This document shows, piece after piece, positions 2,304-16,466 of a stretch of DNA of 25,052 nucleotides. The stretch is from assembly GCA_934591815.1 (NCBI GenBank), contig CAKTPV010000025.1, positions 1 to 25,052 of the forward strand, given 5' to 3'. Made by a program: the position numbers and the translations under genes. The notes below the pieces were generated by a model. It saw nothing but the letters and a program-made list of their open reading frames with translations, had not been told where the DNA came from and ran no database searches. The DNA comes from an uncultured Oscillospiraceae bacterium. GTDB taxonomy: Bacteria > Bacillota > Clostridia > Oscillospirales > Oscillospiraceae. The number at the start of each line of letters is the position of its first letter. Position 1 is the first letter of the stretch.

Positions 2304-2340
2304 CATTTTCCCACCTGCAAACTTATACGGCTCTTAAATC

Positions 2341-2359
2341 TTTGTTCATGTTTTGTTCA
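2341..2359 (+). promoter_or_regulatory. Direct-repeat operator upstream of the efflux operon
   Basis: TTTGTTCA occurs at 2341-2348 and again at 2352-2359, an 11-bp period or one helical turn. This is the layout bound by OmpR/PhoB-family dimers. The second copy ends 22 bases before an extended -10, where a -35 would lie. A near copy with the same spacing is found at 16448-16466. The binding protein is inferred. Confidence 0.6.
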
Positions 2360-2378
2360 CATTTGCAGAAAAGGGGCA

Positions 2379-2387
2379 TGGTATGAT
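2379..2387 (+). promoter_or_regulatory. Extended -10 promoter of the efflux operon
   Basis: TGGTATGAT is an extended -10 (TGn plus TATGAT at 2382-2387). No recognisable -35 lies 16-18 bases upstream; the direct repeat occupies that place, as expected for an activator-dependent promoter. The expected start near 2394 gives a leader of about 120 bases. Confidence 0.5.
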
Positions 2388-2512: not shown

Positions 2513-3802
2513 ATGAAGAAAGCTGCATTCATTCTGGCGCTGGTCATGCTGCTGGGCGTAACGGCCGGCTGCGGCGCGGGCAACGGAGAGGCGTCCGTTC
2601 AGTCCGTCTCCATGATCTGCGGACTTGGTACTGCCGGTCTGACAGACCGATTCGCAGGCGTGGTCAGCGCAATGGGCGAGACAAATATCAAAAAGGACGA
2701 TTCCCTTTCCATCGGGGAGGTCAAGGTCAAGGTGGGCGACGCCGTCAAGGTGGGCGACGTGCTGTTTACCTACGACATGAGCCAGATCGAGATCAATCTG
2801 GAGGAAGCGCAGCTGGCACTGGATGATCTGAAGGCCACGCTCGCCGACAAGGAGGAGGAGAAGAAGCAGACCGAGGCTGCGCTGGATGCGATCGTGGACG
2901 ACGTCGAGAGAAACAAGACGCTCAACCAGATCCGCCAGATCAACCTGGAGATCCGCAACACCAACCGCAGTATTGCGGAGAAGGGGCGGGAAATCGAAAA
3001 GCTGCAGGAGAACCTGAAGAACACCTCCGTCAAGTCGGAGGTGGAGGGCGAGGTCAAGAGCGTCAACCCCAACGGCGGTACCGATGACCGGGGCAACGCC
3101 CTGCCGCTGATCTCCATCGTCCAGACAGGCGGCTTCCGGGTCAAGGGCTATGTCAATGAGAGCAATGCCTCGGTGCTGAACGAGGGAGCCAAGGTGGTCA
3201 TCCGTGCCCGCACCGGCAGCCAGACCTGGGGCGGCACCATCTCCAACATCGACTGGAACAACCCGGCACAGAGCGGAAACACCAACTATTACGACGGCGG
3301 CTCCAGCGATACCGGCACCTCCAGCAAATATCCGTTCTATGTGGAGCTGACCAGCAGCGAAGGACTGCTGCTGGGCCAGCACGTGTACATCGAGCCGGAT
3401 CTGGGTCGGAACGACAGTCCCACCGGCATCCAGCTGCCGGCCGGCTTTATCAATGATGCCGACACCTCTCCGTGGGTGTGGGCGCAGGGCAGCAACGGCA
3501 AGCTGGAGAAGCGCAGCGTGACGCTGGGCGAGTACAATGGTGAACTGGATACCTACACCGTGACGGACGGCCTGACGGCCTCGGACTATATCGCCTATCC
3601 CGACGACACGCTGAAGGCCGGTATGACCTGTGTCACCTATGACGAGAGCACCTTCGAGCCCGACGACAGCGGTAAGATGGACGGCATGGATGGCATGGAT
3701 AATATGACCGGTATGGACGGTATGGACGGTATGGACGGCATGACCGGCGGCACGGATGTTCCGGAGGATATGCAGACCGCGGATGCGCCGGTGGAGGGTT
3801 AA
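2513..3802 (+). CDS. Lipoprotein efflux adaptor (MacA/HlyD-like) with Met-rich tail
   Basis: Periplasmic-adaptor-type subunit of a MacAB-like transporter, 429 aa. I start it at 2513 because AAAGGAG lies 10 bases upstream and the first residues form a lipoprotein signal peptide with lipobox TAGC and Cys20. An upstream in-frame ATG at 2423 would put the signal peptide inside the protein. A lipoyl/barrel-sandwich segment (about 55-90) is followed by a charged coiled-coil hairpin (about 90-165), the second lipoyl half (about 165-215) and beta domains. The C-terminus (389-412) is eight tandem MDG/MTG/MDN triplets, not typical of the family. It is probably anchored on the outer face of the membrane and links the permease to cargo or cell wall. 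The ATPase gene starts 2 bases after its stop. Confidence 0.9.
   Translation: MKKAAFILALVMLLGVTAGCGAGNGEASVQSVSMICGLGTAGLTDRFAGVVSAMGETNIKKDDSLSIGEVKVKVGDAVKVGDVLFTYDMSQIEINLEEAQLALDDLKATLADKEEEKKQTEAALDAIVDDVERNKTLNQIRQINLEIRNTNRSIAEKGREIEKLQENLKNTSVKSEVEGEVKSVNPNGGTDDRGNALPLISIVQTGGFRVKGYVNESNASVLNEGAKVVIRARTGSQTWGGTISNIDWNNPAQSGNTNYYDGGSSDTGTSSKYPFYVELTSSEGLLLGQHVYIEPDLGRNDSPTGIQLPAGFINDADTSPWVWAQGSNGKLEKRSVTLGEYNGELDTYTVTDGLTASDYIAYPDDTLKAGMTCVTYDESTFEPDDSGKMDGMDGMDNMTGMDGMDGMDGMTGGTDVPEDMQTADAPVEG
3677..3748 (+). repeat. Eight 9-bp coding tandem repeats (Met-Asp-Gly type)
   Basis: Eight consecutive 9-bp units starting with ATG encode MDG MDG MDN MTG MDG MDG MDG MTG at the end of the first adaptor. 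Third positions vary between units (ggc/ggt), so the array is not brand new, but its repeat number could vary between strains. Confidence 0.85.
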
Positions 3803-3804
3803 GT

Positions 3805-4485
3805 ATGATCCTTGAAATGCGCGACATCTGCAAGGACTACCCCATGGGCAAATCCGTGAACCACATCCTCAAGCATATCGATCTGGATGTGGAGGCGGGG
3901 GAGTATCTTGCCATTATGGGTCCTTCCGGCAGCGGAAAGACCACGCTGATGAATCTCATCGGCTGTCTGGATGTGCCTACCAGCGGCAGCTACCTGCTGG
4001 GCGGGCAGGACATCACCAAATGCACCCCCAAACAGCTGGCGGAGGTGCGGAACAAGCAGCTGGGCTTCGTGTTCCAGTCCTTCAACCTGCTGCCCAAGCT
4101 GACGGCGCTGGAAAATGTGGCGCTGCCCCTGCTGTACGGCGGCGTGAAGAAGGCCGAGCGGCTGGAGCGCGCCCGGGAGGCGCTGGAGACGGTGGGCCTT
4201 GCCGACCGTGTGGATCACCGGCCCGATCAGCTGTCCGGCGGACAGTGCCAGCGTGTGGCCATTGCCCGCGCCATCGTGGGAAAGCCCCAGCTGCTGCTGG
4301 CTGACGAGCCCACCGGCGCGTTGGACTCCGCCAGCGGCGCGGCGGTGATGGAGCTGTTCCAGCAGCTCCACGACAACGGCGCCACGATCATCATGATCAC
4401 CCACGATCAGGGCATCGCACAGCATGCCCACACCATTATGAACATCCGCGACGGTGTGCTGTCAGGAGGTGCATTCCATGAATAA
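3805..4485 (+). CDS. ABC transporter ATP-binding protein, MacB/LolD type
   Basis: A 226-aa cytoplasmic ATPase that powers the exporter. Visible motifs are Walker A GPSGSGKT (39-46), Q-loop Gln91, signature LSGGQ (143-147), Walker B LLLADEP (163-169) with catalytic Glu168, the D-loop at ALD (172-174) and H-loop His200. The sequence after Walker A and around the signature is that of the LolD/MacB/FtsE group. Residue 148 is Cys where most relatives have Gln (LSGGQCQR). It starts 2 bases after the first adaptor; its ribosome site GGAGGG lies in the end of that gene. Its last 8 bases overlap the second adaptor, so the four proteins are almost certainly co-translated. Confidence 0.95.
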   Translation: MILEMRDICKDYPMGKSVNHILKHIDLDVEAGEYLAIMGPSGSGKTTLMNLIGCLDVPTSGSYLLGGQDITKCTPKQLAEVRNKQLGFVFQSFNLLPKLTALENVALPLLYGGVKKAERLERAREALETVGLADRVDHRPDQLSGGQCQRVAIARAIVGKPQLLLADEPTGALDSASGAAVMELFQQLHDNGATIIMITHDQGIAQHAHTIMNIRDGVLSGGAFHE

Positions 4486-6091
4486 ATCCCTGAAAAAAAC
4501 GCTGCTGATCGCGGGCATCGCCGTGGCTGTGTGCGCCGCCGTCTGGGGCGGCCTGACGCTGGCGCGGAATGCCCAGCGCGGCGATGTCAACGTGTATCGG
4601 GTGTCCGATTTTGCCATGACTGACTACTGGGGCGACACCGCCAACACCAGCGGCAGCGTGAGCACGGATAAATTGCAGAAGCTCTATATCTCCGAGACGC
4701 AGTCGGTCAGCGAGATCTACGTCAAGGAGGGCCAGACCGTCAAAAAGGGCGACAAGCTGATGGCCTACGATACCTCCCTGTCTCAGGCGACGGTGGAGCA
4801 GGCGGAGATCTCTCTGGAGCGGGCGCAGATCAGCGCCAACGCCTCCAAGCGCAAGCTGGAGCTATATAGATTCGCGGAGAACAAGGAGAAGCTCCAGCTC
4901 GAGTACGATACCCAGTACATGAAGCTGGAGGCGCTCATCAAGGCACAGGACGAGGCGGCAGGCCGCTATGAGCCTGTGAAGGAGGGGCTGCTCTCCGTGG
5001 AGGGCAGCAACGGCAGAACAAAGGAAACGCCGCTGTACTATCAGATGCTGGAGGACAGCGGGAAGCAGGAGTACTATCTGACGGACGAGACTATCCGCAC
5101 GAAGATCCTCAAGAACCGCAGCAGCGCGTATGTGGTGCTGGTGGAGAAGGCGGGCAACGTGACCAACGGCTCTGTTACCTGCTACGGTGTGTATGTCGTG
5201 GCGGATGACACCGCCGCGCCGGTGAAGCTGAAAATGCTCAATGACCTGCCTCCCTATGAGGACGTCTACTCTACGAAGAGCACCGAGGAGATCAAGGAGG
5301 CCAGAAAGGAGCTGGACAAGATCCAGGCGCTGCTGGAAGACTCCTTCACCAAGGAGGAGCTGAAATCCCTGATCGCCACCACGGAGAAAGAAGTCTATAA
5401 CAACCAGCGAGCTGTCAGACAGGCACAGATCGAGCTGGAAAAGAAGAAAAAGGAGCTGGGTGACGGCACCGTGTACAGTGAGATCGACGGCGTCGTAAAG
5501 GCCGTGCGGGATGCGAAGGAGGCCTTCAACAAGAACGAGCCTGTGGTGGAGGTCTCCGGCGGCGGCGGTTACTATGTCACCGGCTCTATCGGCGAGCTGG
5601 ATCTGGGCACCGTCAAGATCGGCGACAAGGTGCAGATCAGCAGCTGGATGACCGGCACCAGCTGCGAGGGGGAGATCGTGGAGATCAGCGATTTCCCTAC
5701 GGACAACGGCAGCTACTGGGGCGGCGACTCCAACAGCAACGTGTCCTACTACCCCTTTAAGGTATTTGTGTCCGAGGACGCCGCCCTGCAGGCCGGCGAC
5801 TATGTGGATATGTCCTATCAGAAGACCGTGGCAACTGACGGCACCAGTCTGTACCTGCAAACCATGTTCATCCGCACCGAAAACGGCAAGAGCTATGTGC
5901 TGGCCCGGGGTGAGGACGGCAAGCTGGAGAAGCGCTGGGTCCAGACGGGCCGCGACCTGTGGGGCAGCTACACCCAGATCCGCGGCGGCCTGACGGTGGA
6001 CGACCTTGTGGCGTTCCCCTACGGCCGTGACGTGAAGCCCGGCGCCGCCACGGTGGAGGCCACGGCGGATCAGCTGTACGGCGGAATGTAA
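4478..6091 (+). CDS. Second efflux adaptor (HlyD-like), membrane-anchored
   Basis: A 537-aa adaptor. The start at 4478 is preceded by AGGAGG (4464-4469) and gives an N-terminal signal anchor (about residues 7-29) without a lipobox. A lipoyl motif (about 60-90, VKEGQTVKKGDKLMAYD) leads into a first helix (about 95-165). The second helix (about 270-325, rich in Glu/Lys) and second lipoyl half (EIDGVVKAVRDA) follow only after a non-helical insert of roughly 100 residues. This insert makes it longer than usual MacA proteins (about 370-400 aa). The C-terminal beta domains align in style with the first adaptor (KLEKR near the end of both). The operon therefore encodes two different adaptors for one permease. 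It overlaps the ATPase by 8 bases and is followed after 13 bases by the permease. Confidence 0.9.
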   Translation: MNKSLKKTLLIAGIAVAVCAAVWGGLTLARNAQRGDVNVYRVSDFAMTDYWGDTANTSGSVSTDKLQKLYISETQSVSEIYVKEGQTVKKGDKLMAYDTSLSQATVEQAEISLERAQISANASKRKLELYRFAENKEKLQLEYDTQYMKLEALIKAQDEAAGRYEPVKEGLLSVEGSNGRTKETPLYYQMLEDSGKQEYYLTDETIRTKILKNRSSAYVVLVEKAGNVTNGSVTCYGVYVVADDTAAPVKLKMLNDLPPYEDVYSTKSTEEIKEARKELDKIQALLEDSFTKEELKSLIATTEKEVYNNQRAVRQAQIELEKKKKELGDGTVYSEIDGVVKAVRDAKEAFNKNEPVVEVSGGGGYYVTGSIGELDLGTVKIGDKVQISSWMTGTSCEGEIVEISDFPTDNGSYWGGDSNSNVSYYPFKVFVSEDAALQAGDYVDMSYQKTVATDGTSLYLQTMFIRTENGKSYVLARGEDGKLEKRWVQTGRDLWGSYTQIRGGLTVDDLVAFPYGRDVKPGAATVEATADQLYGGM

Positions 6092-6104
6092 GGAGGGCGA
6101 AGGG

Positions 6105-7352
6105 ATGTTAGAAAATATCAATCTCGCCTTTCAGGGCGTTTGGAGCCACAAGCTGCGGTCATTCCTGACCATGCTGGGCATCATCATCGGCATTGCCGCC
6201 ATCATCACCATCGTGTCCACCATTCAGGGCACCAACGAGCAGATCAAGGAGAACCTCATCGGCGCGGGCAACAATGTGGTGCGTGTCCAGCTGACGCAGG
6301 ACGGCAATCAGGTGGAGCTGGGCTATATGGCGCTGCCCCAGGGCGTCAGCGTCATCACCGAGGAGATGCGTGACGAAATGAGCCAGCTGGGCAGCGTGGC
6401 GGATGTGGCGCTGTACCACCAGCGCCAGTGGCCCGACGGCGTGTACGTGGGCAACAACTCCTTCAGCGGCAACCTGTACGGCATCGACAGCCACTACCTG
6501 TCTGCGGCGGATTATGCCATCAACTACGGCCGGGGCTTCAGCGCGTCGGACTTTGCCAACTGCCGGAAGGTGGCGCTCATCGACACCAAGACGGCGCAGA
6601 GCCTGTTTCAGGGCGAAAACCCCATCGGCGGCACCATGGAGATCTCCGGCGAGCCGTTCACCGTGGTGGGCGTGATCTCCCCGCGGGTGACCTCCGAGCC
6701 GGTGATCAACAACCTCAACGATTACTATATGTACACCGGAAACACCTCCGGCACGGTGTTTATCCCCGATAGCTGCTGGCCCATCGTCTATCGCTATGAT
6801 GAGCCCCAGTCTGTGGCGGTTCGCGCCACGTCCACCAACGATATGACCTCCGCCGGCAACAACGTGGCGGAGTATCTGAACAGTCATGTCATCTCCGGCG
6901 ACACGTTCAAGTACCAGTCCAGGGACCTGCTGGAGCAGGCCAGCCAGCTGCAAAGCCTGTCCGAAAGCTCCAACAAGCAGTTGATCTGGATCGCCGCCAT
7001 CTCTCTGGTGGTGGGCGGCATCGGCGTGATGAACATCATGCTGGTGTCGGTGACGGAGCGTACCCGCGAGATCGGCCTGAAGATCGCCATCGGCGCCCAG
7101 CAGAGCCGGATCCGCTGGCAGTTCCTGACGGAGGCGGCGGTGCTGACCAGCATGGGCGGCATCCTGGGCGTGGGCTGCGGCATCGGCCTTGCGGAGATGA
7201 TGTCCCATGTCATGAGCACGCCGGTGGCCATCAGCGTACCGGCCTGCATCATCGCCGTGGCCTTCTCCATGTGCATCGGCGTGGTATTCGGCTTCGTACC
7301 GGCGGTGAAGGCCTCCAAGCTCAACCCCATCGAGGCGCTGCGCCGCGAATAA
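6105..7352 (+). CDS. MacB/FtsX-type ABC transporter permease
   Basis: A 415-aa inner-membrane permease of the type VII (MacB) ABC superfamily. One N-terminal membrane helix (about 18-40, MLGIIIGIAAIITIVSTI) is followed by a large extracellular MacB core domain (about 45-285). Three C-terminal helices come last (about 290-312, 340-365, 375-402). The block VGGIGVMNIMLVSVTERTRE is a hallmark of MacB permeases. Unlike E. coli MacB, the ATPase is a separate protein here. Family members work by mechanotransmission: they move substrates already outside the membrane, such as peptides, lipids or antibiotics, rather than pumping across it. AGGAGGG lies 8 bases before the ATG. The substrate is unknown. 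Confidence 0.95.
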   Translation: MLENINLAFQGVWSHKLRSFLTMLGIIIGIAAIITIVSTIQGTNEQIKENLIGAGNNVVRVQLTQDGNQVELGYMALPQGVSVITEEMRDEMSQLGSVADVALYHQRQWPDGVYVGNNSFSGNLYGIDSHYLSAADYAINYGRGFSASDFANCRKVALIDTKTAQSLFQGENPIGGTMEISGEPFTVVGVISPRVTSEPVINNLNDYYMYTGNTSGTVFIPDSCWPIVYRYDEPQSVAVRATSTNDMTSAGNNVAEYLNSHVISGDTFKYQSRDLLEQASQLQSLSESSNKQLIWIAAISLVVGGIGVMNIMLVSVTERTREIGLKIAIGAQQSRIRWQFLTEAAVLTSMGGILGVGCGIGLAEMMSHVMSTPVAISVPACIIAVAFSMCIGVVFGFVPAVKASKLNPIEALRRE

Positions 7353-11129: not shown

Positions 11130-11903
11130 TTACAGCGCTAATTCCTTCAGCACGCCGTGACATTTGGCGTTGGCGGCAAACACCGACGAGGGGTGCAGCA
11201 CATCCAGCGGCGTATCCGCCAGCGTGGTGACGGTTCCGCCGGCCTCCGCCACGATCAGGCTGCCGGCGGCGTAGTCCCACGGGGACAGACGGCACTCGTA
11301 GAACAGCTCCACCCGTCCGGCCGCCACCTGACACAGATCCAGCGCCGCCGCCCCGAAGCGGCGGAAGTCCAGACCCTTTTCGTACAGCTGCCGCATCAGG
11401 GAAAAGCTGCGCTCCGTCAGACTGCGGTCGTAGATGGTGGAGCCGCAGAGGAACACGGCGTGTGCCATGTCCTTGTCGCTGACGCGGATGGGAAGACCGT
11501 TGCAGAACGCGCCGCAGTCCTTCTGGGCGGAGAACAGCTCGTCGGCAAAGGGGTCATAGACCACGGCGTACTCCACCTGCCCGTCGTGGGCCAGCGCCAC
11601 GGAGATGTTGCTGTAATGCAGGCGGCGGACAAAGTTGGTGGTGCCGTCGATGGGGTCGACGATAAACGTCCACGGCTGGGTCAGCGCCGCGTGATCCCCC
11701 TCCTCGCCGAAGAAATCCGCCTCCGGCAGCAGCGTCAGCAGCTCCCGCTTCAAAAAGCCCTGTACCGCCACATCGTACTTGGTGACAAGGTCGGCGGCGC
11801 CGTTCTTCTCCGAAGTGACCTGCTCGATGTCGTGGGCCTCCCGCACCATGTCCCCGGCGCACCGGACGATGCGCTCCAGTTCCTGCATCATATTCTCCTT
11901 CAT
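11130..11903 (-). CDS. Inositol-monophosphatase-family phosphatase
   Basis: A 257-aa Mg2+-dependent phosphatase of the SuhB/IMPase/CysQ fold. Metal-binding motifs are complete: GEEG with Glu67/Glu68, DPIDGTTNF with Asp83, Asp86 and Thr88, and WDYAAG with Asp210. Substrates in the family include inositol phosphates, 3'-phosphoadenosine phosphate, NADP and sugar phosphates. The sequence does not settle which. The start at 11903 overlaps the stop of the upstream deacylase as ATGA, with GGAGG 9 bases upstream, so translation is probably coupled. It is the last gene of the minus-strand operon beginning with the response regulator. Confidence 0.93.
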   Translation of the reverse strand: MKENMMQELERIVRCAGDMVREAHDIEQVTSEKNGAADLVTKYDVAVQGFLKRELLTLLPEADFFGEEGDHAALTQPWTFIVDPIDGTTNFVRRLHYSNISVALAHDGQVEYAVVYDPFADELFSAQKDCGAFCNGLPIRVSDKDMAHAVFLCGSTIYDRSLTERSFSLMRQLYEKGLDFRRFGAAALDLCQVAAGRVELFYECRLSPWDYAAGSLIVAEAGGTVTTLADTPLDVLHPSSVFAANAKCHGVLKELAL

Positions 11904-13492
11904 AGGGCATCCCTCCTGATGACTGTTCCGGCTTGTGCGCCGGTGTATGTATCGTGTATGACCGCCGGCTCTCCTGCCACCAGCACGGCGTCCAGTCCGG
12001 ACGCCATCCGGCAGGGGTGCTGATAGTCGCCGTTTTCCCGGAGCTGCGCCAGGTCAAAGACGCAGAGATCCGCGTCCATGCCCGGGGCGATGCGCCCCTT
12101 GCCCCGCAGACGCAGCGCCTTGGCGGGAAGTGCCGTCATCTTCCGGACGGCCTGCTCCGGCGTGAGAATGTGCTTCTCCATGACGAAGTGTTGGATAAGC
12201 CGGGGGAATGTGCCGTAAACGCGGGGATGGGGCATCCCCTCCGTGGGGTAGGTGGCGTCGGAGATCAGATTGGACAGCTCGCTTTGCAGAATGGCGGCGA
12301 TGTCCTCCTCCGAGGCCATGAAGTCGATCATGGTGATCTGGCAGTCCTCCCGTACCAGCAGGTCGCAGCAGCAGTTCAGCGGGTCCTGCCCCGTCAGTGC
12401 CGCGATCTGGGCAAGGCTCTTGCCCAGAAAGGGGTGATCCTCCGGACAGTGGAGACTGGTGAGGTAGATGCCGTCCCAGCCCGCCAGACGGGCAATGTCG
12501 TCGAAGCCTTCACCTGTCTCGATGCGCTGCGCCAGCTCCCGCCGGGCGGCGGGGTCACGGAGCCGCCGCACCACCGCGTCCATGCCGCCCTCCAGAAACT
12601 CCGGCGGCAGGATGTGCAGCAGCTGGGTAGAGCCGGCGGTGTAGGGGTACACGTCGCAGGAGACGTCCAGCCCCTCCTGCCGCGCCTGCTCCAAAAGCGC
12701 CAGCGCACGGGGGATCTTTTGGCCCCAGCTGTCCCGCCCCATGGCCTTCAGGTGGCTGATGTGCAGGGGGATGCGGAGCGTCCGCGCCACGGTGAGCATC
12801 TCCTCCACGGCGGTGCAGACCCCGGCGCCCTCCTGCCGCATATGAACGGTGAGGGGAATATCCTGTCCCCGCAGCGGCGCCAGCGCGCGGAGCAGCTCCT
12901 CCGTGGTGCAGAAGCACTCCGGCGCATAGCCCAGACCCAGCGACACGCCCAGCGCACCGTCGGCCAGCGCCTGCTCCATGGCGCGGTGGATGGCGCGGTA
13001 GTGCGCGTCCTCCAGACGCTCCAGCTCATACCCGGCGGCGTTCGCCCGCAGGGTACCCATGCCCACCAGCATCCCGGTATGGAGGGGCGGCGCCTGCAGC
13101 GCCGATAGATACGCCGCCATGGAGACGGCGGGCAGCGTCTCCGGTATGTCGCCGGTGATGGGCCGCAGGTAGGCGCGGATGGCGGCGTCGTGCGCGCCGC
13201 CGAAGGGGGCGGCGGACAGGCCGCAGTTGCCGTTGACGATGGTGGTCAGCCCCTGCCGCAGCTCCAGCTCCCCGTAGCCGGGGCGGAATGCCGCCGCGTC
13301 GGCGTGGCGGTGGATGTCGATAAAGCCGGGGGTCACCGCCTTGCCGGAGGCGTCGATGATGCGGCACGCTTGGGCAGCGGACAGGTCGTCCACCGCCGCG
13401 ATCCTTCCGGCGGCGATGCCCACATCGGCGGTAAAGCCGGGACGGCCGGTGCCGTCGAGCACCGTACCGCCGCGGATAATGGTATCAAACAC
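11900..13492 (-). CDS. N-acyl-D-amino-acid deacylase family amidohydrolase
   Basis: A 530-aa enzyme of the D-aminoacylase family, which releases D-amino acids from N-acyl-D-amino acids or related compounds. Visible ligands match the family: His61-x-His63 in GFIDIHRHAD, metal-ligand Cys90 in NGNCGLS, His217 in TVHMRQEG, His247 in ISHLKAMG, Asp412 in ISDATYP, plus HPRVYGTFPR. It begins with GTG (13492) after an AGGGAG site. The kinase gene ends 12 bases upstream with no terminator between, so the enzyme is made from the two-component transcript. The downstream phosphatase overlaps by 4 bases. Substrates may be cell-wall-derived or environmental acylated D-amino acids; this is inference. Confidence 0.93.
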   Translation of the reverse strand: MFDTIIRGGTVLDGTGRPGFTADVGIAAGRIAAVDDLSAAQACRIIDASGKAVTPGFIDIHRHADAAAFRPGYGELELRQGLTTIVNGNCGLSAAPFGGAHDAAIRAYLRPITGDIPETLPAVSMAAYLSALQAPPLHTGMLVGMGTLRANAAGYELERLEDAHYRAIHRAMEQALADGALGVSLGLGYAPECFCTTEELLRALAPLRGQDIPLTVHMRQEGAGVCTAVEEMLTVARTLRIPLHISHLKAMGRDSWGQKIPRALALLEQARQEGLDVSCDVYPYTAGSTQLLHILPPEFLEGGMDAVVRRLRDPAARRELAQRIETGEGFDDIARLAGWDGIYLTSLHCPEDHPFLGKSLAQIAALTGQDPLNCCCDLLVREDCQITMIDFMASEEDIAAILQSELSNLISDATYPTEGMPHPRVYGTFPRLIQHFVMEKHILTPEQAVRKMTALPAKALRLRGKGRIAPGMDADLCVFDLAQLRENGDYQHPCRMASGLDAVLVAGEPAVIHDTYTGAQAGTVIRRDAL

Positions 13493-13504: not shown

Positions 13505-14707
13505 CTACTTCCCCGGTTGGACGGGGATGGTGATGGTAAAGCGGGTGACGCCCCCGCCGCTGTCGCAGCGGATAGCGCCCCGGTGCGCCTCCACGATGGC
13601 CTTGGCAATGGGAAGACCCAGCCCGAAGCTGCCCTCGTCGGTGCGGGAGGCATCCGCCCGGTAAAACCGGTCGAAGATGTGGGGCAGTTTGTCGGCGGGG
13701 ATGGCGTCCCCTTGGTTTTCCACCCACAGGCAGGCGTTTTTCCCCTGCCGCACCGCGTCCAGCCGGATCTCCGTGTGGGGCGCGGCGTATTTGATGGCGT
13801 TGTCCAGCAGAACGGCCACCGCCTGCTCCAGCTTCTGCCCGTCGCCCCGTACCCAAAGCCCCGGCGCAATGTCGTAGGACAACGTGTGTCCCGCCTCATA
13901 CGCCACCGGCTCAAACCGCAGGGCCACGTTGGCTGCCGCGTCCGACAGATCCGCCGTGGTATCCGGCAGGCGGGTATCGCCCCGCTCCACCCGGGACAAT
14001 GTGAGCATATCCTCCACCAGATGCTTCATCCGGCGGGACTCGGCGCGGATGTTGTCCACATACTGCCGCTGCTCCGGCGCGGCGCTCTGTTCCAGCAGCT
14101 CCGTCGAGGACAGGATCACCGTCAGGGGTGTTTTCAGCTCGTGGCTGGCGTCGGACAGGAACTGCTTCTGCTGCGCCCACGCCCGGTCCACCGGGCGGGT
14201 CACAGCACCGCTGAGCACATAGCTGCACGCGAACAGCACCGCCAGCGCCGCAAGGCCGATGAGCAGGCTGCCGGTCAGCAGACTGCGGAGGGTGGCCTGC
14301 TCCAGCGTGCTGTCGGTAAAGGCGATGCGGGTGGACAGCAGCCCCTCCTGCCGCAGATAGCGCAGGTGGTGTGCCGGCAGCACGCCCTCGCCGCTCTCCG
14401 CCGTCAGTGCGGCGGTGACGATCTCCGCCAGCGCCGCCTTGTCCGTCAGGTCGTAGTAGCTGTTGCCGGAGATGCGGACGGTGCCGCTGGCATAGACCTC
14501 CGCCACAAAGCAGGGCAGTCCCTCCTGCCCCGGCTGGGACAGCTCATAGCCGCTGCCGGGTTGGAGCGCCTGCTGTAATTGCTGGCGCACATTGCGGGAG
14601 ATGACGGCGCGGGAGGAGAAGTACACAGCGGCGAATACCGCCAGCAGCACGCAGAACACCATACCCATGTTCAGCCCCACGACCTTCCAGCGAAGCTTGC
14701 GGATCAT
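13505..14707 (-). CDS. Sensor histidine kinase
   Basis: A 400-aa membrane kinase paired with the OmpR-type regulator. Helix TM1 spans about 9-30, an extracytoplasmic sensor region about 31-145, and TM2 about 146-168. The H-box is SDASHELKTPLT with phospho-acceptor His189. The ATPase has the N-box LLDNAIKYA, the DRFYRAD F-box and the G-box GSFGLGLPIAKAI. Only about 16 residues separate TM2 from the H-box, so the usual HAMP domain of about 50 residues is missing. The true start is 14707 (GGAGGTGACGGC before ATG), overlapping the regulator stop as ATGA; the frame is open further upstream but that part lies inside the regulator gene. The signal is unknown. Confidence 0.95.
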   Translation of the reverse strand: MIRKLRWKVVGLNMGMVFCVLLAVFAAVYFSSRAVISRNVRQQLQQALQPGSGYELSQPGQEGLPCFVAEVYASGTVRISGNSYYDLTDKAALAEIVTAALTAESGEGVLPAHHLRYLRQEGLLSTRIAFTDSTLEQATLRSLLTGSLLIGLAALAVLFACSYVLSGAVTRPVDRAWAQQKQFLSDASHELKTPLTVILSSTELLEQSAAPEQRQYVDNIRAESRRMKHLVEDMLTLSRVERGDTRLPDTTADLSDAAANVALRFEPVAYEAGHTLSYDIAPGLWVRGDGQKLEQAVAVLLDNAIKYAAPHTEIRLDAVRQGKNACLWVENQGDAIPADKLPHIFDRFYRADASRTDEGSFGLGLPIAKAIVEAHRGAIRCDSGGGVTRFTITIPVQPGK

Positions 14708-15384
14708 GCCGTCACCTCCTCCAGACAGTACCCCACCATGCGCAGCGTCTTGATGCGCACGCGGGAGTGCAGGTGGGTCAGCTTCCGCCGCAGGAAGGAG
14801 ATATACACCTCCACGTTGTTGTCCTCGGCGGCGGAGTCGTAGCCCCATACCTTCAGTATAAGCTGCTCCTTGGACACGATCTGACTGCCGTTCTTCATCA
14901 GCAGCTCCATAAGATCGTACTCCCGGCGGCTCAGGCGGACGGAGCGCTCTCCGCAGGCCAGCAGGAACGTGGCCATTTGCAGGCGCAGGTCTCCAAAGCA
15001 CGTCTCGCCGCTGTCCGCCGTCTCGCCGCCCCGCCGCAGCAGGGAGCGGATGCACGCCAGCAGCTCCTCCGTTTCAAAGGGCTTTGTCAGGTAGTAGTCG
15101 GCGCCGCAGTCCAGCCCCCGCACCCGGTCGCTCACGTCGCTGCGGGCGGTCAGCATCAGCACCGGCACCGTCTCGCCGCCGGCGCGGAGCTGCTGCAACA
15201 GGGAGAAGCCGTCCAGCCCCGGCAGCATAGCGTCCAGCAGCACCAGGTCATAGATGCCGCTGCGGGCGTTGTCCAGCCCGGACACGCCGTCATAGCTGAC
15301 GTCTACGGCGTAGCCCTGCCGGTGCAGCAGCTCCGCCAGCGTGCCGGCCAGACGTTTTTCATCCTCCACGATAAGAATACGCAC
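14704..15384 (-). CDS. OmpR/PhoB-family response regulator
   Basis: A 226-aa DNA-binding regulator. The receiver domain (1-115) has the acidic pair Glu7/Asp8, phospho-acceptor Asp51 in LLDAMLPGLDG, Thr79 and Lys101 in LTKPFE. The C-terminal winged helix (about 128-222) has the family pattern SRREYDLMELLM and VYISFLRRKL. It starts with GTG at 15384 after a GAGGGGG purine run. It is the first gene of a four-gene operon with the kinase, deacylase and phosphatase. OmpR-family dimers bind head-to-tail repeats spaced about 11 bp, so the repeats at 2341-2359 and 16448-16466 are good candidate targets. Confidence 0.96.
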   Translation of the reverse strand: MRILIVEDEKRLAGTLAELLHRQGYAVDVSYDGVSGLDNARSGIYDLVLLDAMLPGLDGFSLLQQLRAGGETVPVLMLTARSDVSDRVRGLDCGADYYLTKPFETEELLACIRSLLRRGGETADSGETCFGDLRLQMATFLLACGERSVRLSRREYDLMELLMKNGSQIVSKEQLILKVWGYDSAAEDNNVEVYISFLRRKLTHLHSRVRIKTLRMVGYCLEEVTA

Positions 15385-15459: not shown

Positions 15460-16386
15460 TCAGCTCAGACCGTTTTCCGCCAGCGTCAGCACCTGCACCA
15501 GCGACGCCTCCTCCATGCGGTAGATGGTGGGCTCGTCGTTCAGCGTCACATAGCGGCCGCCGTCTCCGGTGGGCAGGCCGATGGAAACGGTCAGCGCCTC
15601 CTCGCGGCCGGTGACGCCCGTATAGGTCACCACCAGGATCGCCTCCGGCGCGTTGAGCCCGCAGACGGCGGCAGCGCCCTCCGCGGGAGCGTAGTCCACG
15701 CAGGAGGTCACGCTCAGACGGGACAGCTCCTCCACCAGCGGGGCGGTTTTTTCGGTCACATCCCGCGTACCCACCTTCCGCACGCCGTCCGCCGCCCGGA
15801 TGGTGAAGCGCTCTCCGTCGGCGCCGGCAATCACGGCGGTACGCAGCGTGTCGGCGGTGATGGCGGGCATGACGGGCAGCACCGCCAGATCGTAAATGCT
15901 GCCGTCCAGCAGCTGGAAGATCTTCACGGCGTCATCGGACACCAGACGCACGGAGGTGTCCTCAGCGCACAGCAGGTACCAGTCACCGGAGGCGGCCTGA
16001 TCGCCCCGTGTGAAGGTCAGCGTCTCACCGTCCGCCGTGACGGAGAGACTGGTCTTGGCGTCATCCAAGCCGTATTCCGACAGGTCGTCCCCCGCCTGCA
16101 CCGGCGTGGAGGCGGTCATGGCGGCGGCAGCCTCCAGCAGCGCCGGCATACCGGCCTGATCCAGCGGAAACGTGGCGTCGTCCTGCCAGAACCAGACGCC
16201 GTCGTCGTCCCGGCGGAAGCGCAGCACCTGTGTGTCGTCGGACAGCACCAGCGCCGTGATGCCCTCCGGCGGAAGCGCCGCCTGCGCATTGGGGTCGGCG
16301 TCGGCGTCGGGCTGCGCCTTGTGGCCGCAGCCCACCAAAAGCGCCGCTGTCAGCAGCAGCACCGGCAAATATACGTGTCGTTTCAT
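15460..16386 (-). CDS. DUF4340-type lipoprotein
   Basis: A 308-aa lipoprotein. The start at 16386 is chosen because AAAGGAG lies about 9 bases upstream and it begins the signal peptide directly, with lipobox LVGC and Cys20; a start 10 codons earlier lacks these. The body shows repeated beta-rich units with Asp-Leu-Ser-Glu-Tyr-Gly-Leu-Asp and CGLNAPEA, resembling the YGLD-x-P units of DUF4340 proteins. Relatives are often next to ABC-type export systems, and their molecular role is unknown. This copy is monocistronic or reads through a terminator into the two-component operon. Its promoter shares an operator with the efflux operon at 2513-7352. Confidence 0.8.
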   Translation of the reverse strand: MKRHVYLPVLLLTAALLVGCGHKAQPDADADPNAQAALPPEGITALVLSDDTQVLRFRRDDDGVWFWQDDATFPLDQAGMPALLEAAAAMTASTPVQAGDDLSEYGLDDAKTSLSVTADGETLTFTRGDQAASGDWYLLCAEDTSVRLVSDDAVKIFQLLDGSIYDLAVLPVMPAITADTLRTAVIAGADGERFTIRAADGVRKVGTRDVTEKTAPLVEELSRLSVTSCVDYAPAEGAAAVCGLNAPEAILVVTYTGVTGREEALTVSIGLPTGDGGRYVTLNDEPTIYRMEEASLVQVLTLAENGLS

Positions 16387-16419: not shown

Positions 16420-16448
16420 AGTATACCAGCTTCGTGTACAAAAGTGAA
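16420..16448 (-). promoter_or_regulatory. Promoter of the DUF4340 lipoprotein gene
   Basis: On the minus strand there is -10 TATACT (16420-16425) extended by TGG, with a weak -35 TTCACT (16443-16448) at 17 bases. The -35 touches the direct-repeat operator. Confidence 0.6.
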
Positions 16449-16466
16449 GAACAAAACGTGAATAAA
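16448..16466 (-). promoter_or_regulatory. Direct-repeat operator, second copy
   Basis: On the minus strand TTTATTCA (16466-16459) and TTTGTTCT (16455-16448) repeat with an 11-bp period. The 20-base block matches the one at 2341-2360 in 16 of 20 positions, and exactly 22 bases separate it from an extended -10 in both cases. Confidence 0.6.

Follow-up and report, generated by a model that had tools for sequence, protein, structure and literature searches.

A likely OmpR/PhoB-type operator at an exporter promoter of a gut Oscillospiraceae bacterium, and a possible counterpart at the operon of a two-component system

The promoter of a two-adaptor ABC exporter operon in an uncultured Oscillospiraceae bacterium appears to carry a genuine activator-type operator, a direct repeat with an 11-bp period (site 1), and a look-alike further along the same DNA (site 2) appears to be the operon promoter of the lipoprotein, response regulator and sensor kinase genes that follow it, the two having the same layout. 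We assign this reading, which draws on sequences, conservation and gene order, a probability of about 0.55. As site 2 is mostly its operon's own conserved promoter, a switch shared by the two promoters is no more than possible. The window, that is, the whole stretch of DNA analysed, comprises 25,052 nucleotides (GenBank assembly GCA_934591815.1, contig CAKTPV010000025.1).

In the proposed mechanism, a regulator of the OmpR/PhoB family would bind head-to-tail 11-bp units at site 1 (TGTTCA-N5-TGTTCA, possibly with a degenerate third unit), which directly precede an extended -10 that has no -35, and RNA polymerase would be recruited to the exporter operon, the direction of the effect thus being activation. 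Site 2 would serve the lipoprotein-regulator-kinase operon through a pyrimidine block lying over the -35 position together with an extended -10.

Genomic setting

Four consecutive plus-strand genes (2513-7352) are arranged as HlyD adaptor, ABC ATPase, HlyD adaptor and MacB permease, the order of a two-adaptor MacB-type ABC exporter. By Pfam they encode a first HlyD-type adaptor lipoprotein (2513..3802; HlyD_3), an ABC ATPase (3805..4485; ABC_tran), a second HlyD-type adaptor (4478..6091; HlyD_3 above the cut-off and Biotin_lipoyl_2 slightly below it) and a MacB/FtsX-type permease (6105..7352; MacB_PCD, FtsX).

About 6 kb away lies the two-component system, on the minus strand. A DUF4340 lipoprotein (15460..16386; PF14238), with a homologue in 29 of the 32 genomes of the genus, is followed by RR1, a predicted OmpR-family response regulator (14704..15384; Response_reg and Trans_reg_C), a sensor histidine kinase (13505..14707; HisKA, HATPase_c) and an amidohydrolase (11900..13492), likely the fourth gene of the operon. 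The order of these four genes is the same in the related genome G666, where the amidohydrolase again follows the kinase. In NCBIfam, RR1 is RppA/CopR-like, below the cut-offs. A preliminary description made from the sequence alone had placed an OmpR-family gene next to site 2; Pfam bears out the family, and the gene can now be described more precisely as the second of the operon that site 2 precedes.

Among 394 genomes of the order, the GyrA-like proteins closest to that of the window come from G139 (83%), G001 (82%) and G050 (79%). The lipoprotein most similar to the window's is that of G666 (48%, with the next full-length match at 40%), which also has the most similar first adaptor (62%, next 60%).

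The exporter promoter

Site 1 occupies 2341..2359 on the plus strand and consists of the direct repeat TTTGTTCA-TGT-TTTGTTCA with an 11-bp period, which makes it a putative operator of the OmpR/PhoB type for the exporter genes. Exactly as the preliminary description had it, 22 nt separate the repeat from the TATGAT (2382-2387) of an extended -10 (TGG plus TATGAT, 2379..2387) without a -35, and a scan of the plus strand from 2150 to 2520 returned no match to a sigma-70-type promoter. Immediately upstream, TCTTAAATC (2332..2340, plus strand) may represent a degenerate third unit; its CTTAA is present in G666, and TTAA lies equally far upstream of a gene in another genome of the genus, G671.

Conservation of site 1 is that of a footprint in a single relative. 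The exporter promoter of G666 retains TGTTCA-N5-TGTTCACA together with the upstream CTTAA and GCATGNTATGAT, with much of the other intergenic DNA diverged; its -10 is TGATATGAT, at a spacing of 23 nt vs 22 in the window. Over the repeat positions the match to site 1 is 15/16 in G666, and none of the remaining 36 exporter upstream regions exceeds 12/16, so that one region of 37 conserves it at an orthologous exporter promoter. This set comprises the best 30 loci (134 genomes had a match) and seven more, with L176-L178 left out; one of its stretches, L175, sits inside its gene and contains no promoter.

Few tandem copies of TGTTCA exist in the genus. The exact pair TGTTCA-N5-TGTTCA occurs in seven copies in six of the 32 genomes vs none for the reversed pattern, and a 22-base version allowing up to three mismatches gave four matches vs none for the reversed control (G671 with no mismatch, G666 with one and two other genomes with three). 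In G671, exactly 22 nt separate the copy from the TATAAT of a TIGR02206-like gene, which scores 71.5 bits against a cut-off of 75. Apart from the G666 exporter and the G671 gene, the exact pairs precede unrelated genes and have no 22-nt spacing. A wider regulon reaching through the G671 gene was considered and dropped; seven other genomes have distant homologues only, at 26-34% identity.

Because of the footprint in G666, the rarity of tandem TGTTCA and the 22-nt spacing in G671, site 1 is likely an operator of the OmpR/PhoB type. Its units are head-to-tail with an 11-bp period, in G666 as well, and adjoin a promoter without a good -35. The suggestion of a class II activator site of this family fits site 1 in period, position and footprint, as far as sequence can tell, but it carries over poorly to site 2, whose conservation across the genus lies in a pyrimidine block and the -10.

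Exporter promoters elsewhere present a different picture. An inverted repeat, TGTATTA...TAATACA, was matched at 12/14 or better in 12 of the 37 exporter upstream regions (the best 30 loci plus seven), although at least the match in L114 may be chance, and six of the 12 come from genomes of the same genus. Orthologous two-adaptor exporters with an inverted repeat near this form at the promoter are found in L105, L106, L108, L112, L124, L125 and L170-L173. In the window and G666, its best match is only 9/14. These palindromic elements, which we take to be of the GntR/YtrA type, are inverted repeats at orthologous exporters, whereas site 1 is a direct repeat.

The promoter of the lipoprotein and two-component operon

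Site 2, TTTATTCA-CGT-TTTGTTCT, lies at 16448..16466 on the minus strand, with its second unit inside a T-rich block conserved in the genus, and 22 nt separate it from the TATACT of an extended -10 (TGG plus TATACT, 16420..16428, minus strand). The window form of the conserved pyrimidine block, TTTTGTTCTTCACTTTTG (16439..16456, minus strand), includes a -35-like TTCACT, 17 nt upstream of TATACT, with which the promoter scores 9/12 matches and has the TG. The preliminary description, which had presented this site as a mirror of site 1 at 16466-16420, was correct as to the 16 of 20 identical bases, the 22 nt and the TGG plus TATACT, but the -35-like element sets the two promoters apart.

In most of the 28 relatives' lipoprotein promoters, anchored on the -10, a block near TTTTTCTTTCCTTTT ends about 10 nt before TGNTATACT. 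Strong conservation across the genus thus falls on TGNTATACT and on a pyrimidine block where a -35 would lie, not on the TTTGTTCA repeats. The set uses 28 of 30 rows, as two G675 rows (one with no upstream DNA, one a short fragment) were set aside; the G139 promoter, in which no block is clear, was kept in the 28-promoter matrix and omitted from alignment A1 (27 rows) and from model R1. With the window excluded from its construction, the matrix of 28 promoters puts site 2 at the top of 50,010 positions, with 43.4 bits where the runner-up has 2.7; site 1, in the register of the preliminary description, comes 97th. Model R1, built on 27 promoters, likewise ranks site 2 first (27.1 bits, E 6.5e-8, next 7.0). 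Site 2 accordingly has the features of the genus-conserved RR1-operon promoter, in which some 10 nt lie between the pyrimidine block and TGNTATAMT, and between the window and G666 this promoter keeps ATTCACG-N3-TGTNCTT-N2-CTTTT and TATACTG.

Downstream of the lipoprotein gene, which starts at 16386, the regulator (15384-14704) and the kinase (14707-13505) come next on that strand, so that in site 2 we probably see the two-component system's own promoter, that of a lipoprotein-RR1-kinase operon. In G288, in which no lipoprotein gene was detected, RR1 itself is immediately preceded by a promoter of this type, and for this reason a promoter of the site 2 type is taken to belong with the two-component system. 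The pyrimidine block may itself be the site at which a regulator acts.

Likeness of the two sites

Sites 1 and 2 are identical at 16 of 20 bases and at 14 of 16 repeat positions. Dinucleotide shuffling of the whole window (300 rounds, scanned on both strands) never gave 14 or more (best 13), and shuffling of the 221-bp intergenic region gave 14 in five of 20,000 rounds, figures that ignore that the pair had been picked after the whole window was read. In the same register, the orthologous lipoprotein promoters of 28 relatives reach at most 12/16, with a median of 7.

This likeness appears to be composite. Since the second unit, TTTGTTCT, falls within the block, at a place occupied by T-runs in relatives, part of the resemblance to site 1 comes from the block itself; another part comes from a TTCAC in the register of the first unit, which five of the 28 relatives share (G666, G672, G674, G685 and G686), with the G672 and G674 promoters reaching 12 and 11 of 16. 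Restricted to the operator columns, the 28-promoter matrix places site 1 1,820th in register, but places its region 4th of 50,040 when shifted by 3 nt; restricted to the two-unit columns, it places site 1 44th of 50,066 and site 2 2nd. Because of the ranks of 44th and 4th, the two promoter elements may be less distinct than argued here.

A composite pattern, TTCAYN4TGTNC-N21-26-TATRNT, gave ten matches in eight of the 32 genomes vs two for the reversed pattern. These are the exporter and lipoprotein promoters of G666, two promoters before the pair formed by a second regulator, RR2, and its kinase, and six elsewhere. The two G666 promoters are that genome's sole matches, to a pattern partly drawn from both. 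A common operator at the exporter and lipoprotein promoters is possible. The argument that operator and spacing point to shared regulation is sustained insofar as the likeness exceeds that of the shuffles and the 28 orthologues, but weakened by the lack of the TTTGTTCA pair in the relatives' promoters.

Candidate regulators

The foremost alternative, though an improbable one, is that RR1 binds both sites and activates the exporter as well as its own operon. It would account for the 14/16 identity at an equal spacing of 22 nt, for a regulator encoded within the very operon that site 2 precedes, and for the in-register TTCAC and the partial matches in G672 and G674 described above. Furthermore, a degenerate T-N-T-T-C unit recurs in the relatives' promoters at columns 26 (12 of 29) and 37 (9 of 29), a distance of 11 and a phase that agree with sites 1 and 2; this was noticed post hoc, and the unit also occurs at columns 29 (10) and 31 (8). 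However, the motif SFLRRKL, which by analogy with OmpR/PhoB structures presumably forms the core of the RR1 recognition helix, is the same in all 28 relatives. A site of autoregulation should therefore have persisted with it, but the TTTGTTCA pair is missing from those relatives' promoters, where the match peaks at 12/16 (n=28). Model R1, the profile of the RR1-operon promoters, gives site 1 only 3.4 bits (E 2.1). The six genomes of the genus with palindromic exporter operators all have RR1, and response regulator or histidine kinase matches near the exporter were found in one of the 22 stretches searched, so the neighbourhood of exporter and two-component system is not a conserved one. Lastly, in the G666 assembly a short tandem duplication shifts the frame of RR1 (L256:3308-4010), and both promoters persist there although the reading frame is interrupted; the duplication is possibly an assembly error. 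Given a helix constant in 28/28 relatives, of whose orthologous promoters none (0/28) reaches site 2's match, control of both sites by one local regulator is unproven and somewhat disfavoured, and the same verdict falls on the small regulon under RR1 that the preliminary description had put forward.

A more speculative version gives RR1 a looser specificity. RR1 would read degenerate T-N-T-T-C half-sites that recur every 11 bp and keep a constant phase relative to the extended -10. For most of the genus, the T-rich block would be where RR1 controls its own operon; in the line leading to the window's organism and G666, the exporter, whose relatives have palindromic operators, would have gained in-phase TGTTC units and joined the regulon by recent capture. 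This scenario is doubtful.

Less probable again, and on balance unlikely, is control of site 1, perhaps also of site 2, by RR2, an MtrA/YycF-like regulator (near both in NCBIfam, below the cut-offs) encoded elsewhere. RR2 is found in 29 of the 32 genomes at 88-100% identity (E 1e-70 or better), but outside the window, so that its presence in the window's organism is an extrapolation. The attraction lies in its own promoter, which precedes a regulator-kinase pair and carries a related operator, TTYACA-N5-TTYAGG, in 26 of the 27 promoters taken (L293 deviates) at nearly the same distance from TATAAT, the gap between TTCA and TATAAT being 21 nt in those counted and 22 at sites 1 and 2. In 26 of the 27 promoters taken from L289-L317, the element upstream of TATAAT is near AATTTACANAATGTTCAGGAAA. 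The 27 sites come from 29 loci (L304, with a misplaced start, and L316, at a contig end, were dropped) and were found with a repeat search pattern; that pattern came from the sites compared, and the resemblance is therefore partly built in.

The best match to the 15-mer of the G666 RR2 operator in the 16-kb locus L255 is the G666 exporter operator itself (13/15), and both window sites are among its three best matches over about 50,000 positions (11/15); of 20,000 letter-shuffled 15-mers, two did equally well on the pair of window sites. However, the -10 of this G666 promoter (L295) is not clear-cut, and among the other 26 RR2 sites only that of L299 places the window sites in its top three; for the remaining ones, 20 to 1,305 positions match as well as site 1. 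Scored with a matrix of all 27 sites, site 2 comes 31st among 50,062 positions and site 1 comes 84th, as both lack the GGAAA that is conserved after the second unit (TTYACA-N5-TTYAGGAAA). With so attractive a layout but so weak a matrix score, RR2 was set aside as the regulator.

Chance likeness is a very unlikely explanation. Both promoters would then simply stand out as AT-rich against a GC-rich genomic background, with an ordinary promoter at site 2 and a lineage-specific sequence at site 1. The small difference between the second unit of site 2 and the relatives' T-rich block speaks for it, as does the manner in which the pair was chosen; against it stand the 14/16 identity, which neither the 300 window shuffles nor the 28 orthologous promoters reached, and the conservation of site 1 in G666.

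The WalR/VicR box is given as TGTWAH-N5-TGTWAH (PMC4168254, PMC9210968), and wal operons are described as not autoregulated (PMC9210968). Like site 1, the box as given there has two hexamers with an 11-bp period, a TGT start and a position upstream of the promoter, but TGTTCA has C at position 5 against TGTWAH, and in this respect site 1 departs from the published form (PMC4168254). The Pho box of the genus, before pstS-like genes, also consists of repeated hexamers before a -10, but its units are of the TTTACA type, not TGTTCA; they were recognised by eye in seven of the eight pst loci read, out of nine above the cut-off, and site 1 has no such unit. PhoB is therefore unlikely as the regulator, since the pst promoters carry a TTTACA box instead. 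DnaA boxes were likewise considered and set aside.

Implications

Should the shared operator be real, a two-component system from a little-studied lineage of gut Oscillospiraceae would gain a set of targets open to testing, and the exporter would have switched from a palindromic to a direct-repeat operator between related species, a case of regulatory rewiring. If it is not, the pair warns that where the genome is GC-rich, T-rich promoters can mimic shared operators.

Further observations

The pyrimidine block does not appear to mark a general class of promoters. It was present at one of 53 extended -10 sites, namely the G666 lipoprotein promoter, with one match for the reversed control; these sites were drawn from 95 loci not selected for the block, many of them RR2 loci. 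Model R1 also matched promoters of unrelated genes, among them a GTPase (Pfam MMR_HSR1) that we presume to be RbgA/YlqF-like. A pyrimidine-block promoter precedes the GTPase gene in at least eight genomes of the genus (L216-L220, L222, L223 and L229), and by eye several of these matches overlap the apparent T-run of an upstream terminator. In the Oscillibacter-type loci L002, L003, L006, L007 and L061, the DNA before the DUF4340 gene resembles, by eye, the end of a membrane-protein gene and not a promoter. A large gene on the minus strand (1-2204), divergent from the exporter, is cut by the edge of the window; its counterpart in G666 encodes 1582 aa, with a cytidylyltransferase-like stretch in mid-protein as its sole Pfam match.
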